A stretch of DNA of 64,000 nucleotides, taken from the NCBI GenBank assembly GCA_024102815.1, contig JAGFJJ010000069.1:140950-204949 (forward strand). The letters run 5' to 3'. The DNA comes from Phycisphaerae bacterium. Its GTDB lineage: Bacteria; Planctomycetota; Phycisphaerae; UBA1845. Position 1 is the first letter of the stretch. Each line of letters starts with the position of its first letter. Under the pieces are notes generated by a model. It did no database searches. It was not told the DNA's origin and saw only the letters and a program-made list of their open reading frames with translations. The translations under genes were made by a program, and so were the position numbers. Positions 13,926 to 26,783 of the stretch are shown in pieces.

Positions 13926-15032
13926 ATGGGGGGTATGGCCTACATGAACGAGGGCAGCGCCACGCAGCATGTCATCCGCACCGTTCGGCTGGATGACGTC
14001 GGCGTGGGGAAAATCCTTGATACGCTCGACGAAGCGGATGTCACCAACGGTTCCGATGCCAGCGTGGTCCGCTACCGGTATCGGCTCAAGGCGCTGGTTC
14101 TGCACATCCAGCAACTGGGAGCCAGCGAGACCTTTCATTATCTCGTGCCCACCCGGAAGCTCTCTCACGTCGACCTCTGCTTTCTGTTCGGCGGATTCAT
14201 CCATCCCGGCACGCGCTGCATGGCCCAGCTCATCACGCCGCACGGTACTTGGAACAACGCGGCGGGTGAGGTCGTCAGTTGCCGTTACGTTTCCAACAAC
14301 ATCCACGACGTCATGATGTGCTTTGACCAGCACGTCGACCCCTCGGTCTATTGTGCCGAGGCCGTGGACTCCCGTGTCCTCGTGGTCGAGGACGATCCTT
14401 CGGAAGCGAAGCTGCTGGCGTTCCACCTGCAGAAACTCAATGCCAAAGTCGAAATCGTCGGCGACGGGCAGCAGGCCTTGGAAATGGTCCAGAGTCACAC
14501 GTTTGATCTGATCCTCATGGACATCCTTCTGCCGAACCTGGACGGCATCGAAGCCGTCAAGGAACTCCGCAAGAGGGGATACAGCGGAACGGTGGTTGCC
14601 GCGACCTCTCTGACGGCCCCCGAGGATCGCGATCGCTGCCTGGCCGCCGGGTTCGACCGCTATCTGGCCAAACCTGTTTCGAGAACGGAGCTGGCCACGG
14701 TCATGGCATCGCTCCGCGAGGAGCCGCTGTTCAGCAGCCTGATGGACAGCCCCGGCATGGAACCGTTGATCGACGAATTCGTGCAGGGTCTGCCGGGGCG
14801 AATCCGCGTGTTGGAAGAGGCCCGCATGCACGGCGACCTGGAAGGGGTCAAGCAGGTGGCCCGCATGCTCAAGGCGCAGGGCAGTGGATTCGGGTTCGAT
14901 CCCATCACAGACGCCGCCGGCAAGATCGAGAAAGCGGTTCTTGCGGGCAGTGCACTCCAGACCCTGGGAGATGACATCACCCAGCTCATTCGACTCTGCA
15001 TGCAGGCCCGCAGCAGCACCCGGGCGGAATAA
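13926..15032 (+). CDS. PilZ-like / receiver / HPt-like three-part signalling protein
   Basis: From the ATG at 13926 the product has 368 residues. Residues ~15-135 match a PilZ-like beta-barrel, including a degenerate TRKLSHVDL element in place of the c-di-GMP motif and a GEVVSCRYV strand. Residues ~148-265 are a receiver domain with D199 (LILMDILLPNLDG) and the conserved Lys (YLAKPVS). Residues ~285-365 form a helical HPt-like domain, but the usual phospho-accepting His is replaced: the motif reads VARMLKAQGSGFGF where AHTLKGSA would be expected. It therefore probably binds partners instead of relaying phosphate. The frame is open further upstream (to 13734), but that stretch is low-complexity and has no ribosome site, so the start is uncertain. 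It is divergent from the CheX/CheY pair. Confidence 0.75.
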   Translation: MGGMAYMNEGSATQHVIRTVRLDDVGVGKILDTLDEADVTNGSDASVVRYRYRLKALVLHIQQLGASETFHYLVPTRKLSHVDLCFLFGGFIHPGTRCMAQLITPHGTWNNAAGEVVSCRYVSNNIHDVMMCFDQHVDPSVYCAEAVDSRVLVVEDDPSEAKLLAFHLQKLNAKVEIVGDGQQALEMVQSHTFDLILMDILLPNLDGIEAVKELRKRGYSGTVVAATSLTAPEDRDRCLAAGFDRYLAKPVSRTELATVMASLREEPLFSSLMDSPGMEPLIDEFVQGLPGRIRVLEEARMHGDLEGVKQVARMLKAQGSGFGFDPITDAAGKIEKAVLAGSALQTLGDDITQLIRLCMQARSSTRAE

Positions 15033-15067
15033 ACAGCCCCAATCGCGGAAACCTCTGCCCTGACGGC

Positions 15068-15096
15068 TTGACTCGCCCGGTAGGTCTTTGTACTAT
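15068..15096 (+). promoter_or_regulatory. Sigma70-type promoter of the sulfur operon
   Basis: TTGACT at 15068-15073 and TACTAT at 15091-15096 are separated by exactly 17 bases, matching five of six and four to five of six consensus positions. Transcription would begin near 15103, about 290 bases before the first enzyme gene, leaving room for the attenuator described below. Confidence 0.6.
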
Positions 15097-15102
15097 CCCG
15101 CG

Positions 15103-15231
15103 TTGACGGATTTCGGGTCAGGATTCCGGCCGTAGCGTTATCGGGCGATTTCGATGTCGAGCCAGCGCCAACTTCATATCCAGCGCCTTGCGGGACGTTG
15201 CGCCTGTTGCTGTTGTTGTCATGGGGCTTAA
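15103..15231 (+). CDS. Putative cysteine-rich leader peptide of the sulfur operon
   Basis: This 42-codon frame ends in Arg-Cys-Ala-Cys-Cys-Cys-Cys-Cys-His-Gly-Ala-stop; six of the seven codons from 15199 to 15219 are Cys (TGC/TGT). It lies between a strong promoter and the APS/sulfite reductase genes and stops one base before an antiterminator strand. This is what a ribosomal attenuation leader needs: scarce Cys-tRNA would stall the ribosome on these codons. The weak point is initiation. The only in-frame start candidates are TTG codons, at 15103 (coinciding with the predicted transcription start, so possibly leaderless) and 15088. An ATG at 15155 is in another frame and encodes Val instead of Cys. 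Poly-Cys leaders controlling sulfur genes are known from mycobacteria; this one is inferred only from sequence. Confidence 0.55.
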
Positions 15232-15308
15232 GGAACCTCCCGAAGGCTGGAAGATTCGATCGAGCGTTTAGACGAATGGCCCGCGGGATGGTTCCTGCGG
15301 GTTTTTTT
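15231..15308 (+). promoter_or_regulatory. Attenuator: competing antiterminator and terminator helices
   Basis: AGGAACC at 15231-15237 is a perfect complement of GGTTCCT at 15290-15296, and after a small internal loop CCCG at 15239-15242 can pair with CGGG at 15284-15287. Forming this long helix takes apart both arms of the terminator at 15280-15301. The 5' strand begins on the last base of the Cys-leader stop codon, so a ribosome that finishes the leader would cover it and let the terminator form, whereas one stalled on the Cys codons would leave it free. A small hairpin (ATTCG/CGAAT, 15254-15277) lies inside the loop. Confidence 0.6.
15280..15308 (+). terminator. Intrinsic terminator in the leader of the sulfur operon
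   Basis: CCCGCGGGA (15280-15288) and TCCTGCGGG (15293-15301) form a 9-bp stem with one G-T pair and a four-base loop, followed directly by seven T residues (15302-15308). It lies upstream of the first enzyme gene and so would cut off the operon unless prevented by the antiterminator. Confidence 0.8.
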
Positions 15309-15394
15309 GTGTTCGGATCCGGGGTTGCCGACCGGAACACCGACCCGGGCGACCGGGTCGCCTCGCCGCCGGGGGGAAAAGAGGAGCAAGAGCC

Positions 15395-16111
15395 GTGGAA
15401 ATGGAGCTTCGAGAATCGCGCCCGATTCTGTCCATCAACGAGGACACGCCGACCGATGAGTTCATTGCCTGGTCGCTGGAACGCTTCGCGGGCCAGAACA
15501 TGGTGATGACGACGTCGTTCGGAATGGAAGGATGCGCCCTGATCGACATGTATGCACGGCACGGGCGGCCCCTGACCGTGATCTATCTCGATACGATGTT
15601 TTTCTTCGAGGAAACGTATCGCCTTCGTGACCGGATGGCCGAGCGCTATCCGCACCTGACGCTCGTCAACAAGGGCACGGAATTCACGCCCGAAGAGCAG
15701 GAACGGCAATTCGGACCCGCCCTGTGGAAGAGCCAGCCGGACCTTTGCTGCCGCATCCGCAAGGTCGATCCGATGTTCGGGGCGATGGAAGGTGTGGACG
15801 TCTGGATCACGGGGCTGCGGCGGAGCCAATCGTCGACGAGAGCGAACATCAAGCTGATCGACTGGGACTGGAAGTACCATGTCCTGAAGATCAGCCCGCT
15901 GGCCAACTGGGAACGTCCGCAGATCTGGGAGTATATTCAGAAGCACGATGTGCCTTTCAATGAATTGCATCTCAAGGGATATCCGACGGTGGGATGCACG
16001 CATTGCACGCAGCCGGTCGAAGGATCGAAAGTGGGTGAATACTCGCGCGACGGTCGCTGGGCCGGCCAGGGCAAGACCGAGTGCGGTCTGCACGGCGGTG
16101 CCGGTATCTGA
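15395..16111 (+). CDS. cysH: Assimilatory adenylyl-sulfate (APS) reductase, [4Fe-4S] type
   Basis: The 238-residue protein belongs to the PAPS/APS reductase family. It has the two Cys pairs that bind a [4Fe-4S] cluster (C118-C119 in DLCCRIRK and C201/C204 in GCTHCTQP), the mark of thioredoxin-dependent APS reductases as opposed to the cluster-less PAPS enzymes, and the catalytic C-terminal ECGLH (C230). It reduces activated sulfate to sulfite, the substrate of the next enzyme. The GTG at 15395 is preferred because GAGGAG lies 8 bases upstream; an ATG follows two codons later. A GC-rich dyad (GACCCG...CGGGTC, 15342-15359) sits just before the ribosome site. First enzyme gene of a four-gene operon. 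No ATP sulfurylase is in the window. Confidence 0.93.
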   Translation: MEMELRESRPILSINEDTPTDEFIAWSLERFAGQNMVMTTSFGMEGCALIDMYARHGRPLTVIYLDTMFFFEETYRLRDRMAERYPHLTLVNKGTEFTPEEQERQFGPALWKSQPDLCCRIRKVDPMFGAMEGVDVWITGLRRSQSSTRANIKLIDWDWKYHVLKISPLANWERPQIWEYIQKHDVPFNELHLKGYPTVGCTHCTQPVEGSKVGEYSRDGRWAGQGKTECGLHGGAGI

Positions 16112-16160: not shown

Positions 16161-17897
16161 ATGAGCGACAGCCCGCAGGAAAAGGAATCCAAGGTCGAAG
16201 CGGTGAAGCGGGCCAGCCGGCACCTCCGCGGGACGATCGCCGAGACGCTCGCTTCCGACGCGACCCACTTCGCCAAGCAGGACGAGCCCCTGCTGAAGTT
16301 CCACGGAACGTATCAACAGGACGACCGCGACGTCCGCCACGAGCGACGCAAGCAGAAGCTGGAGGAGGCCTACCAGTTCATGGTTCGCGTGGCCATTCCC
16401 GGCGGCGTTCTCGATGCCGACCAGTATCTCGCACTGGATGCATTGGCGGAGCGCTACGGGGGCGGCTCGCTTCGAGCGACCACGCGGCAGGGTTTTCAGT
16501 TTCACGGCATTCTCAAGAAGAACCTCAAGGCCACGATCAAGGGCATCAACGACGCCCTCTTGACCACCATTGCCGCCTGTGGCGATGTGGAGCGCAACGT
16601 CATGGCCTGCCCGGCACCGCTGCCGGATGCCGCGCACGAGACGCTGCGCCGCGTTTCGCGCGAAATCGCCGTCGCCCTTCGGCCGAGCACACGCGCGTAT
16701 CATGAAATCTGGCTCAACGGAGAAAAGCACCTTACGAGCGAGCCCTCGGCGGATGAAGAGCCGTTTTACGGCGAAACCTATCTGCCGCGCAAGTTCAAGA
16801 CCGGCGTCGGCCTGGCGGACGACAATTGTGTCGACATTTACTCGTACGACGTGGGCCACGTGCTCCTGCTCGACGGTTCGCGCGTGCGGGGCTTCAACGT
16901 GCTTGTCGGCGGGGGCATGGGCATGACCCACGGCAAGGCCGACACGTTCGCGCAGATCGCGCAGCCGCTGGGATTCGTCGGGCCGGAGCACGCCGTGGAG
17001 GCGACGCGCGTGATCGCGGCCATCTTTCGCGACCACGGAAACCGGGCGGACCGTCGTCACGCGCGCCTCAAGTACCTTATTGCCGAATGGGGCATGGAGC
17101 GCTTCCGCGAGGAATTCCGGAAACGGGCTTCGTTCCCGCTCGAGCCGTGGGTGGAGATTCCCCGTCCGGGTTTCCACAACCACCTCGGCCGGCATGAGCA
17201 GGGCGGCGGGAAACTGTTCTACGGCATCTATATCGACAACGGTCGTATCCGCGACTTCGATCACGCGCGCATCAAGACGGCGCTTCGCGAGATTGTATCC
17301 CGGCACAAGCCGGGGCTGCGCGTGACCGCGGAGCAGAACATCCTCTTGACCGATCTTTCGGAAACCCAAATCGCGGACATTGAGAGCATTCTCCACGCGA
17401 ACGGAATGAAGACGGCCGGGGAACTGCCGCTTGCCCGTCTGGACTCCATGGCCTGCCCGGCGCTGCCAACGTGCGGTCTGGCGATGGCGGATTCGGAGCG
17501 GGTCATGCCGGGCGTCATGTCGCAGTTCGAGGAAGCGCTGGCCGAGCTGGGACTCGAGGGAGAGCCGATTACCATTCGCATGACGGGGTGCCCGAACGGG
17601 TGCGCGCGGCCGTACAGCGCCGACATCGGACTCGTGGGACGGCGCCCGGGGCTCTATCACGTCTACGTGGGCGGGAGTCTCTCGGGAGATCGCCTGTCCG
17701 ACTTGTACGCCGCCGACGTGGAGATGGACGGGATTGTTCCACTCGTTCGCCCGCTCCTTCAAAGCTGGGCGAAGCGCCGCAGCGCCGGCGAGGGGCTGGG
17801 GGACTTTTACCAGCGGCTCCTTCAGCGCAGGGACATCCGCACGACGCTGACCGGCGGCGAAGAGCCCACGATGGAGACCTTGCGCCCGCTTCTTTGA
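16161..17897 (+). CDS. cysI: Sulfite (nitrite/sulfite) reductase, siroheme [4Fe-4S] hemoprotein
   Basis: The 578-residue protein has the duplicated ferredoxin-like and 4Fe-4S/siroheme domains of the sulfite/nitrite reductase family. The cluster and siroheme ligands are C432-x5-C438 (ACPALPTC) and C477-x3-C481 (TGCPNGC), and the substrate-site ATTRQGFQFHGI and NVMACPAP segments are intact. It reduces sulfite to sulfide with six electrons. Position between APS reductase and siroheme synthesis genes favours sulfite over nitrite. No flavoprotein (CysJ) gene is present, so ferredoxin or another donor may supply electrons. Spacing to cysH is 49 bases. Confidence 0.93.
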   Translation: MSDSPQEKESKVEAVKRASRHLRGTIAETLASDATHFAKQDEPLLKFHGTYQQDDRDVRHERRKQKLEEAYQFMVRVAIPGGVLDADQYLALDALAERYGGGSLRATTRQGFQFHGILKKNLKATIKGINDALLTTIAACGDVERNVMACPAPLPDAAHETLRRVSREIAVALRPSTRAYHEIWLNGEKHLTSEPSADEEPFYGETYLPRKFKTGVGLADDNCVDIYSYDVGHVLLLDGSRVRGFNVLVGGGMGMTHGKADTFAQIAQPLGFVGPEHAVEATRVIAAIFRDHGNRADRRHARLKYLIAEWGMERFREEFRKRASFPLEPWVEIPRPGFHNHLGRHEQGGGKLFYGIYIDNGRIRDFDHARIKTALREIVSRHKPGLRVTAEQNILLTDLSETQIADIESILHANGMKTAGELPLARLDSMACPALPTCGLAMADSERVMPGVMSQFEEALAELGLEGEPITIRMTGCPNGCARPYSADIGLVGRRPGLYHVYVGGSLSGDRLSDLYAADVEMDGIVPLVRPLLQSWAKRRSAGEGLGDFYQRLLQRRDIRTTLTGGEEPTMETLRPLL

Positions 17898-17918: not shown

Positions 17919-18716
17919 ATGCGTACAACGGCTGTCATCCTCGCCGCTCACGGCTCTTACGCGGAGCCGGCCGTCAATGCCCAGATCAGCGACTGGGCGG
18001 GTCAATTGCGCCACCGCGGCGTTGCCCGGGAAGTTCTTGCTGCATTCCACCAAGGTTCGCCACAATTCCGCGAAGTGCTGGATGGCATCGGCGGTGAGGC
18101 TGGCGTGGTCGTACCGGTGATGACGAGCGAGGGGTTTTTTGCCAGCGAGTTTCTGCCGGCCGAGCTGGCCAGGAATGGGCGATTCGGTTCGATGGACGTA
18201 CGTATCACGCGGCCAGTTGGCACCCATCGCGATGTCGTTTCGTTGATTGCGGATCGGGCCGGGCAAATGGCATCTGCATTCGACATTCGGTTGAGCGAAG
18301 CCGTCATCGCACTGGTGGGTCACGGAACTCCGCGACACCGGGCGAGCCGCCGGGCGACGGAATCGGCCGCGCAACTTCTGGGCGAAGGGCAGCGGTGCAA
18401 CGAGGTCATCACCGCGTTTATCGACGATGAACCGGCGATTTCGTCGGTCCTGGGTCGAACGGAGGGGCGGGATGTCATTGCAATCCCGTTTCTGATTGGC
18501 GCAGGGCCGCATGCCGTTCAAGATGTTCCGGCGGCGCTCGGACTTCCGTCGGAACCGGGTGCGGTGCCGCCGTTCTCCGGACTCGTCGGCGGGCGTCAGG
18601 TCGTCTGTGACGCACCGATCGGAACGCATCCCGGCATCCTCGGGATCATCGAATCGCTGGTTCGAGAGGGAATAGACGCGCCGGTCATGCGTGGAGCAGA
18701 ACCCCATGCCGTTTGA
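17919..18716 (+). CDS. sirB: CbiX/SirB-type sirohydrochlorin chelatase, two-domain form
   Basis: The 265-residue protein shows two tandem CbiX units, each starting with a metal-binding His motif: LAAHGSYAEPA near residue 9 and LVGHGTPRHRAS near residue 130. The family inserts Fe(II) into sirohydrochlorin for siroheme, or Co(II) for anaerobic cobalamin synthesis. Between a siroheme enzyme and a uroporphyrinogen methyltransferase, the iron role is far more likely. It follows the sulfite reductase by 21 bases and its end overlaps the start of the methyltransferase gene. Confidence 0.88.
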   Translation: MRTTAVILAAHGSYAEPAVNAQISDWAGQLRHRGVAREVLAAFHQGSPQFREVLDGIGGEAGVVVPVMTSEGFFASEFLPAELARNGRFGSMDVRITRPVGTHRDVVSLIADRAGQMASAFDIRLSEAVIALVGHGTPRHRASRRATESAAQLLGEGQRCNEVITAFIDDEPAISSVLGRTEGRDVIAIPFLIGAGPHAVQDVPAALGLPSEPGAVPPFSGLVGGRQVVCDAPIGTHPGILGIIESLVREGIDAPVMRGAEPHAV

Positions 18717-19524
18717 CGCAGACACGTCAGCCATACCTCGCAGGGGCGTCGTGTACATCGTCGGAGCCGGTCCCGGTGATCCGGGTTTGATCACGGTCCG
18801 CGGGCTTGAATTGCTCGGCCGAGCCGACGTGATTCTCCATGACCGTCTGGTTACGGACGAGATTCTTGCGCTTGCCCATCGTGACGCTCGGCGCATCGCC
18901 GTTTGCACCCTCGGTTCGGATTCCGCCACGCGCCAGAGCCGCATCCACGAGTTGTTCGTTGAGTACGCGGCCGCGGGGCAGACCGTGGTCCGGCTCAAGG
19001 GCGGCGACCCGTTCGTGTTCGGGAGAGGGTTCGAAGAGGTCCGGGCCTGTCGCGATGCGGGCATTCCGTGCGTGGTTGTGCCGGGGGTTTCAAGCGTGAT
19101 TGCCGGACCGGCCGCCGCGGGCATTCCACTAACCGATCGCAACCTGGTTCGCACGGTGGCTTTCGTCACTGGACGCATTTCGCCCGACGCCGAAGCGCCG
19201 CCCATCGATTTTGCGGCGCTTGCGTCGATGGACACGCTCGTGGTGCTCATGGGCCGCGAGAACCTCGGTGCCATCTCCCGGACACTGATCAAGGCCGGAA
19301 AGAATCCGGCCACGCCCGCTGCCTGCGTGGAACGTGCTACGACGCCCGAGCAGCGCGTGATCGTGTCGACGCTGGTCGACCTTCCGGCGGTCGCCGATCG
19401 CGAAGGCCTCACCTCTCCGACGGTCATCGTGGTCGGTCCTGTGGCGGCGCTGGCGGAAGAGGCCAAGGATGTCTGTGCGATGTTCATGGTCGAGCAGTCC
19501 AGCCAATCCCCGCTTTCCCCGTGA
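18706..19524 (+). CDS. cobA: Uroporphyrinogen-III C-methyltransferase (SUMT)
   Basis: The protein shows the SUMT fold with the GAGPGDPGLITVRG P-loop, the RLKGGDPFVFGRG signature and the PGVSSVIAGPAAAGIPLTDR motif, so it should methylate uroporphyrinogen III at C2 and C7 to give precorrin-2. Together with the upstream chelatase this makes siroheme for the sulfite reductase; the dehydrogenase step (CysG-B/Met8 type) is not encoded in the window. The ATG at 18706 is preferred because GGAG (18693-18696) lies 9 bases upstream; a GTG at 18691 is an alternative. Either way it overlaps the end of the chelatase gene. Last gene of the sulfur operon. Confidence 0.93.
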   Translation: MPFDADTSAIPRRGVVYIVGAGPGDPGLITVRGLELLGRADVILHDRLVTDEILALAHRDARRIAVCTLGSDSATRQSRIHELFVEYAAAGQTVVRLKGGDPFVFGRGFEEVRACRDAGIPCVVVPGVSSVIAGPAAAGIPLTDRNLVRTVAFVTGRISPDAEAPPIDFAALASMDTLVVLMGRENLGAISRTLIKAGKNPATPAACVERATTPEQRVIVSTLVDLPAVADREGLTSPTVIVVGPVAALAEEAKDVCAMFMVEQSSQSPLSP

Positions 19525-19978: not shown

Positions 19979-20321
19979 TCGTCAAGCGGGTGCGCAGAAT
20001 CTGCGCTGGCAAGCGCGGTCATCCCTGAGGACTTGGTAATTCTGAGAAGTCGGGGATTATCCGGGTGGGTATCCTGGGAATTGTTGGCGGAGATTTCACA
20101 GGATAAGTCGGTCTTTAAGTTGCATAACGAAGAAGTTGGGGGTGCATTGGCCGTTTCGGTCGCGGTGAACGAAGTGTCGCATGCGGATGGGTTTGCGGCG
20201 GCAGGCATGCCAATTGCCCGGCCATGTAAGTTGCAGACCGGTCGGGGTTTGCGCGCAGGAGGCCGCGCCTTTCGTTCATGGGTGCGGTGCGGAAGACATA
20301 CCGGCTCAGGAGATGCCCGCC

Positions 20322-21554
20322 ATGACGCGATTCAAGTCATCAAGTACGTGGTTGACGGTGATGTTGTGTGCGGTCGGACTTGTCGTGCTGGCCGGTTGTC
20401 CCGTTGTCGTGCCGCCCGGGAACGACAACGACAACACGAACGTGAATGACAACGACAATACGAACACGAACGACAATACGAATACGAACGATAACGACAA
20501 CACCAACGTGAACGACAACGACAACGACAACGGGGAGCCGGGTCCGGCGCAGACCTTCCCGACGAGCCTGCACTTCCAGCGCACCGGCAAGGCGTACTTC
20601 TATGCCGAGGAGAACGGCGGGTTCGAGACGATCACGCAAGTTCCCATGGATGATCTGGAGTGCCAGGCGTGCCACGCTGCCACCCTGGCCGACGGCACGC
20701 CGGTCGATGCCGAGACGTACGTTCCGAGCTGCGCGGATTGCCATGCCGACCCGGGGGATCCCGGGGAGGTGGCCGACAGCACCTGTCTCGGCTGCCACTC
20801 CCGTCAGGGCGCCGAGCAAGGCCTCTATAGTGACGTACACCGGGACATGGGCTTCACGTGCATGAGCTGCCACGCGCTGAGCGAAATGCACGGCGACGGG
20901 ACGGAGTACAACTCGCTGCTGGATGACGGGGCGATGGTCACGCGATGTGAGAACTGCCACAATCCGCCGCCATCCAATTCGGCCCACACCATTCACACGG
21001 CGAGCGTCGATTGCTCCGCGTGTCACGTGCAGTCCGTGATTTCGTGCTACAGTTGCCACTTCGAGAGCGAGGTCGTGGGCACCGGGAAGCGGTTCTTCAC
21101 GCCGCCGCGGAAGGACTTCAAATTCCTGGTCAATTTCCGCGACAAGGTTCACACCGCGACGTTCCAGTCGCTGACGTATCAGGGCGAGTCGTTCTACGTA
21201 ATCGCTCCGTACTACGCCCACACGGTGACGGCCGAAGTCAATTGCGGGGATTGCCACGGGAACGCGGCCGTGCAGGAATACAACGATACGGGCATGATCA
21301 CGGTTACGTCGTGGGACGAAGACACGCGCACGCTGACGGGCCCGTCGGGCGTGATCCCGATTCCGCCGGATTGGGAGACGTCGCTTCTGCTGGATTTCCT
21401 GGACTACACGGGCGATCCTATGACGCCGATCCCGGATACGGATCCGGCGCTGTGGGAGTACCTCAAGACCGGCGCCGACCTCACACAAATGCTCTATGGT
21501 GAGCCGCTGACGGCGGAGCAGATCGGAAGTCTTTCCATCAGCTTCGGCGGCTGA
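20322..21554 (+). CDS. Octaheme c-type cytochrome lipoprotein with Asn-Asp linker
   Basis: The 410-residue protein begins with a lipoprotein signal (LVVLAGC), then an about 37-residue linker of alternating Asn, Asp and Thr, and then a domain with eight CxxCH heme sites: CQACH, CADCH, CLGCH, CMSCH, CENCH, CSACH, CYSCH and CGDCH. It should sit on the outside of a membrane and carry electrons; multiheme proteins of this size often belong to nitrogen, sulfur or extracellular redox chemistry. Here no partner gene is adjacent. The start at 20322 is set by an AGGAG 9 bases upstream and by the signal peptide; the longer open frame upstream is not signal-like. A strong terminator follows. Confidence 0.88.
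   Translation: MTRFKSSSTWLTVMLCAVGLVVLAGCPVVVPPGNDNDNTNVNDNDNTNTNDNTNTNDNDNTNVNDNDNDNGEPGPAQTFPTSLHFQRTGKAYFYAEENGGFETITQVPMDDLECQACHAATLADGTPVDAETYVPSCADCHADPGDPGEVADSTCLGCHSRQGAEQGLYSDVHRDMGFTCMSCHALSEMHGDGTEYNSLLDDGAMVTRCENCHNPPPSNSAHTIHTASVDCSACHVQSVISCYSCHFESEVVGTGKRFFTPPRKDFKFLVNFRDKVHTATFQSLTYQGESFYVIAPYYAHTVTAEVNCGDCHGNAAVQEYNDTGMITVTSWDEDTRTLTGPSGVIPIPPDWETSLLLDFLDYTGDPMTPIPDTDPALWEYLKTGADLTQMLYGEPLTAEQIGSLSISFGG
20421..20532 (+). repeat. Asn-Asp-Thr codon repeat (NDN linker)
   Basis: About 112 bases of reiterated aacgac/aacaat/acgaac units encode the flexible acidic linker between the lipid anchor and the heme domain of the octaheme cytochrome. The same repeat type occurs at 48201-48312 in a second cytochrome. 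Confidence 0.85.
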
Positions 21555-26422: not shown

Positions 26423-26540
26423 CATCGTTTCACCATGTGGAGCAGCCATTCAGCCCCTGCGGACAGGGTGGAGATTGCATCTCACCAGGGAAAGCGCGGA
26501 ACGCGGCGCCTCAGTCCCCGAAGGCACCACATCAACGCGA

Positions 26541-26735
26541 TTTCGACCGGCAGGTCTTCTGGCTTACGGATCGTCCTACTGACCACGCCTTCTCCGAAGG
26601 ATGCCCGGGCCATATCTGCCCGGCTCCTGCGAATGGCGGTTCGTGGTGTTCGTACCCGATTACAGCGGCGGGTCCGCGGTGGATTTGCACCACCTTCCCT
26701 TTTGACCCGTGACGAGCACGGGCGCACCAGTCATC
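26541..26735 (-). promoter_or_regulatory. Cobalamin (adenosylcobalamin) riboswitch aptamer
   Basis: Read on the minus strand, the conserved elements occur in order: GGTGCGCCCGTG, AAAGGGAAGGTGGTGCAAATC, CGCGGACCCGCCGCTGTAAT, then the B12-box-like AGCCAGAAGACCTGCCGG. These match the class-I/II cobalamin aptamer core closely. It is followed by an intrinsic terminator and a three-gene operon for a PEP-CTERM propeller protein, a dockerin-type secreted protein and a pseudopilin. The usual targets (cobalamin synthesis, BtuB, metE) are absent nearby. Confidence 0.95.
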
Positions 26736-26783
26736 GCGAACTATGCAATTGTCAACGGCCGGGGATCACCCTGCCGATCGCAA

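Follow-up and report, generated by a model that had tools for sequence, protein, structure and literature searches.

A predicted cysteine-responsive transcription attenuator in the cysH leader of a group of planctomycetes

We analyzed the DNA upstream of the sulfate-reduction operon of a Phycisphaerae bacterium and compared it with the corresponding DNA of related planctomycetes. The cysH leader is very probably a ribosome-mediated transcription attenuator that senses the supply of Cys-tRNA and controls cysH-sir-cbiX-cobA. The whole analysis was comparative and computational, and the species compared are related.

In the proposed mechanism, RNA polymerase would transcribe the leader while a ribosome trails on a short Cys-rich frame. 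With ample Cys-tRNA, the ribosome would reach the stop codon and hide an antiterminator strand that overlaps or abuts it; the terminator hairpin would then form, and transcription would end before cysH. With Cys-tRNA in short supply, the ribosome would stall on the Cys codons, and the antiterminator strand would stay free to capture the 5' arm and loop of the terminator, resulting in read-through into the operon. The terminator would also form when the ribosome is absent, making termination the default. Most relatives are predicted to start translation of the frame leaderless, and the copy studied here would use an internal ATG.

Results

The window (the whole analyzed stretch of 64,000 nucleotides) carries the leader and the operon on the forward strand (Table 1). 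The initial annotation had described a promoter, a Cys-codon run, an antiterminator strand, its complement and a terminator, and we located all of these elements in the sequence. The annotated promoter was present with 9 of 12 consensus positions matched, for which shuffles of 600 bases gave an expectation of 0.2, and the relatives showed TTGAC-17-TAnnnT promoters at the equivalent position. This promoter places the predicted transcription start near 15103. Six of seven codons in the run were Cys as annotated, and the frame was closed by TAA at 15229-15231. AGGAACCTCCCG (15231-15242) begins on the last base of this codon, and the antiterminator strand overlaps the stop of the leader ORF. Its complement CGGGATGGTTCCT sits within the terminator; the strand pairs with the 5' arm of the terminator hairpin, with its loop and with some of its 3' arm. 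The GC-rich terminator with seven Ts was also found, and its hairpin has 11 pairs.

Table 1. Coordinates of the leader elements and of the operon genes in the window
Feature	Position	Strand	Basis
Promoter TTGACT-17-TACTAT, sigma-70-like	15068-15096	+	Consensus match 9/12; same place in relatives
TTG in frame where the RNA is predicted to begin; TAG 15133-15135 ends this frame	15103-15135	+	Sequence, relatives
Leader ORF MSSQRQLHIQRLAGRCACCCCCHGA (stop), 25 codons, ATG start, no clear Shine-Dalgarno	15154-15231	+	Sequence
Cys codons, 6/7 (TGC GCC TGT TGC TGT TGT TGT), presumed regulatory	15199-15219	+	Sequence, conservation
Antiterminator strand (region 2): GGGCTT, AGGAACCTCCCG, GGCT	15224-15248	+	Folding, covariation
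Intrinsic terminator: 11-pair hairpin 15278-15303, T7 15302-15308	15278-15308	+	Sequence, pair counts, folding
cysH, (phospho)adenylyl-sulfate reductase, GTG start, first regulated gene (predicted)	15395-16111	+	NF002537, PF01507
sir, assimilatory sulfite reductase hemoprotein	16161-17897	+	NF010029, PF01077
cbiX, CbiX-type chelatase	17919-18716	+	PF01903
cobA, uroporphyrinogen-III C-methyltransferase (cobA/cysG C-terminal type), siroheme synthesis	18691-19524	+	TIGR01469

The four genes of the operon serve sulfate and sulfite reduction together with the supply of the siroheme cofactor, and the CbiX-type enzyme is probably the sirohydrochlorin chelatase for siroheme. The TGT:TGC ratio was 130:58 in the Cys runs of 37 leaders and 5:15 in the operon genes of the window. 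Shortly after the operon, an ORF at 20181-21554 showed an Asn/Asp/Thr repeat and many CxxCH-like motifs and perhaps encodes a secreted multihaem cytochrome. Elsewhere in the window, a cobalamin riboswitch (Rfam RF00174, 109 bits) was found on the minus strand at 26532-26746. At 15050-15400, the Rfam covariance models matched no family even at an E value of 1, and a riboswitch or T-box before cysH was therefore rejected.

We searched for the leader in 36 genomes of the family to which the window genome belongs, the named members of which are recorded as Phycisphaerae or Planctomycetota MAGs. A close cysH was carried by 29 of them and was lacking in the remaining 7. A Cys-rich short ORF (sORF) preceded cysH in 29/29 of the genomes with a close cysH, and a terminator with a T-run followed 54 to 82 nt past the sORF stop in nearly all of these leaders. 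R1, an RNA model of the leader region trained on many of its own hits, matched the leader locus in 27/29 cysH-bearing genomes, some of these matches being training sequences, and none of its hits was strong in the 7 genomes of the family that lack cysH. A wider regulon was rejected, because the strong hits of R1 amounted to essentially one per genome, in every case at cysH.

The N-terminal parts and the lengths of the sORFs varied among the relatives while the Cys run stayed in place, and the genes upstream of the leader differed as well. Conservation was thus limited to the Cys run, the terminator and the RNA surrounding the stop codon. This pattern bears on the possibility that the Cys-rich peptide is itself active, perhaps as a small protein of metal- or redox-binding type. 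Clusters of Cys residues are able to bind metals, but the sequence and length outside the Cys run were not conserved, Pfam and NCBIfam gave no family for the peptide, and the selection that we observed acted on RNA pairing at the stop codon. An active peptide is thus a very unlikely explanation.

Outside the family, the leader element was present in some families related to this one and also in L065 and L067, two planctomycetes that are more distant, and most cysH genes of other planctomycete families had no such leader. It was not found at about 45 cysH loci from Bacillota, Acidobacteriota, Actinomycetota and other groups. In L101, an Anaerolineaceae MAG (Chloroflexota), two tandem Cys-rich frames were found before cysH at 2560-2950, and a terminator-like hairpin follows each of them. 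The first of these frames (MIKTVEGQRMCLCCCPCAMGAGESLL) is the one at the promoter and starts 7 nt downstream of a -10 box. Searching 392 genomes of the phylum for a pattern of leaderless poly-Cys frames returned only ordinary genes and small unrelated frames, and this search is no census because the gap it used was too short for most real leaders. At a locus from another planctomycete family (L125, 207-1456), a Cys-rich frame (MAMCCCMCPTG...) and a terminator precede a gene for a TauE/SafE-type permease, which itself lies upstream of cysH.

The initial annotation had named an alignment of related planctomycete cysH leaders as a check. Such an alignment showed that the Cys run is conserved and that the terminator and antiterminator helices covary. 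In the terminator, 95.5% of the cells were paired and 5 pairs were changed on both sides; in the antiterminator, 84.4% were paired and 9 pairs were changed on both sides, a level reached in 0/500 shuffles, although these counts are not independent because the species are related. Read as its reverse complement, the consensus at the stop codon (GGAGGAnCGTCCTGACGGG) closely matches the terminator consensus (CCCGCAGGAnnGTTCCTGCGGGTTTTTTT) across the 5' arm, the loop and a portion of the 3' arm. The duplex energy averaged -32.3 kcal/mol for own partners versus -26.7 for partners swapped between species, a difference reached in 0/20,000 permutations. Four control segments further upstream showed no matched-versus-swapped effect (z of -0.8 to 1.5), and shuffled strands gave no coevolution signal. 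The coevolution was seen again in ten leaders fetched with R1, some of which were near-copies of the first set.

The relatives keep a GGAGG motif resembling a Shine-Dalgarno sequence in the antiterminator strand (columns 22 to 26 of alignment A2, in the relatives of 15224-15242), with no evident start codon downstream. The presence of GGAGG in this strand is explained by pairing, and the motif may in addition help to hold the ribosome as it terminates. A putative 1:2 protector hairpin (CCTC...GAGG past the Cys run) was seen in several relatives and was absent from the window.

The same data bear on whether the terminator is instead that of the response-regulator gene upstream, with the Cys run being a chance frame. 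That gene ends at 15032, 246 nt before the hairpin. However, a promoter intervenes between the two, the upstream genes differ among the relatives while the sORF, terminator and cysH stay together, and the coevolution of antiterminator and terminator would be left unexplained. Furthermore, runs of five Cys codons occurred at few places in the same genome (5.09 Mb) and the leader anatomy was present at the cysH run only, indicating that the run is not due to chance. Among the alternatives we considered, this one has the lowest probability.

We folded the RNA beyond a modelled ribosome, beginning 12 nt downstream of the first A-site base and continuing up to the T-run of the terminator, with an equilibrium model in which the ribosome footprint is fixed and kinetics play no part. 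The terminator probability P(term) in the window was 0.09, 0.08, 0.03 and 0.16 when the last four Cys codons in turn occupied the A site. It was 0.95 to 0.96 from 15223 to the stop, 0.96 at the stop and 0.95 without a ribosome. P(term) was also low at two non-Cys codons (15187 and 15190). Averaged over 36 leaders, P(term) was about 0.85 at first, dropped to 0.47 on the Cys run and rose to 0.96 beyond it, and about a third of the relatives' leaders showed little difference between stalled and completed translation in this equilibrium model. Changing the footprint to 9 or 15 nt moved the dip by one codon only. The folding with a modelled ribosome thus reproduced the earlier proposal that stalling on Cys codons frees the antiterminator and finished translation masks it, and predicts that the terminator is lost mainly with the ribosome on Cys codons.

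The start codon was the point at which the initial annotation had to be corrected. Only TTG codons were said to be in frame, one of them at the predicted transcription start, but an in-frame ATG is present at 15154-15156. Furthermore, the TTG at 15103 cannot open the Cys frame, because the in-frame TAG at 15133-15135 follows it. To name initiation as the weak point was a misreading, since this ATG exists and most relatives carry an in-frame ATG at the predicted start.

To examine the starts of the relatives, the best sigma-70-like promoter of each leader was picked without using the reading frame. In 29 of 37 leaders, an in-frame, open ATG followed the -10 box at a distance of 6 to 10 nt, and random positions passed this test in 8% of cases. 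Among the ATGs located 3 to 12 nt past the -10 box, 34 were in frame and 2 out of frame. Seven further loci fit the pattern, these being loci that had been searched for having the feature. On the strength of the 29 leaders, the sORFs of most relatives are predicted to be leaderless. A peptide start at the extreme 5' end of the RNA implies that the ribosome would load without a 5' UTR, in a manner tied to transcription initiation. After such loading, the Cys run would govern the intrinsic terminator.

In the window, the promoter lies at the expected distance, and TTG 15103 occupies the site at which the relatives carry the ATG of the leaderless sORF. Judging from the sequence and from the relatives, this TTG is probably a decayed start or the start of a mini-ORF. 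The missing leaderless ATG may reflect real decay or a sequence error. Translation of the Cys frame may begin at ATG 15154 or restart there after the TAG. The initiation signal in the window is weak, as ATG 15154 has no clear Shine-Dalgarno sequence and lies about 51 nt past the predicted transcription start.

Discussion

The leader combines the features of trp/his-type attenuators: a run of end-product codons in a short predicted frame before the sulfate-reduction operon (29/29), an intrinsic terminator between this frame and the first gene, and an antiterminator that, according to the coevolution and the folding prediction, excludes the terminator and would be masked on completed translation. 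The trp, his and ilv attenuators of Proteobacteria and Actinobacteria (e.g., ilvBNC, PMC11857589) share with it a leader peptide rich in the end product, mutually exclusive antiterminator and terminator structures, and default termination without a ribosome. The planctomycete leader differs from them in the amino acid sensed, in the leaderless start predicted for most members, and in the phylum.

Leader peptides with Cys runs have been published for Actinobacteria, where they lack terminators (PMC1262725). In mycobacteria, leaderless poly-cysteine sORFs have been described as attenuators (Canestrari et al. 2020, doi 10.1111/mmi.14498, as cited in PMC9094748 and PMC13236596). With these mycobacterial sORFs, the planctomycete leaders share the Cys run, the (predicted) leaderless start, the position as the first frame of a sulfur or cysteine operon, and the proposed sensing of cysteine. 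The likeness described here is one of features, and the phyla are different. The start at the transcription start is predicted for the same 29 of 37 leaders and would be replaced in the window by the downstream ATG.

The mycobacterial sORFs before cysteine genes were reported to act by translation in PMC13236596, as first suggested in PMC4633059. By analogy, the planctomycete sORF could govern access to the cysH ribosome-binding site or be translationally coupled to cysH, the hairpin being incidental. However, nearly all relatives have a T-run terminator between the sORF and cysH that covaries with the strand at the stop codon, in contrast to the mycobacterial leaders, which have no terminators (PMC1262725) and are reported to act translationally (PMC13236596). 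Coupling is also a poor fit because the gap between the terminator and cysH ranges from 44 to 342 nt. Translational control of this type is therefore highly improbable, if slightly less so than the other alternatives weighed above. Transcription attenuation remains our preferred reading, with a terminator in the window and in nearly all relatives.

Another published system is the uORFC-8-2 motif before cysS in Rhodobacterales, a predicted attenuator in which a pair of Cys codons is linked to a terminator (PMC8632094). The predicted ribosome-mediated transcription attenuation, the Cys codons and the terminator are common to both. uORFC-8-2 has two tandem Cys codons, targets cysS in Alphaproteobacteria and has no leaderless start described, whereas the planctomycete leaders have 4 to 8 Cys codons before sulfate-reduction genes; in the window, six of seven codons are Cys and the target is cysH-sir.

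The published Cys-run leaders and the terminator-linked cysS case make this a mechanism of known kind. Within the limits of our checks, three aspects are new: the phylum, the operon that is targeted, and the joining of a leaderless poly-Cys frame to an intrinsic terminator. The open-access literature that we searched contained no leader-peptide attenuators in Planctomycetota. Cysteine-sensing attenuators with a full antiterminator and terminator are hardly described anywhere (one prediction for cysS). We lean toward the view that the leaderless-sORF transcription attenuator is an invention of Planctomycetota (plus the Chloroflexota case L101), independent of the mycobacterial translational poly-Cys sORFs. 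The joint occurrence of leaderless starts and control by a terminator suggests more than one origin for poly-Cys sensing.

Whether transcription and translation are coupled in planctomycetes is debated, given their unusual cell plan. The cysH leader element predicts that the coupling in these bacteria would be close enough for attenuation.
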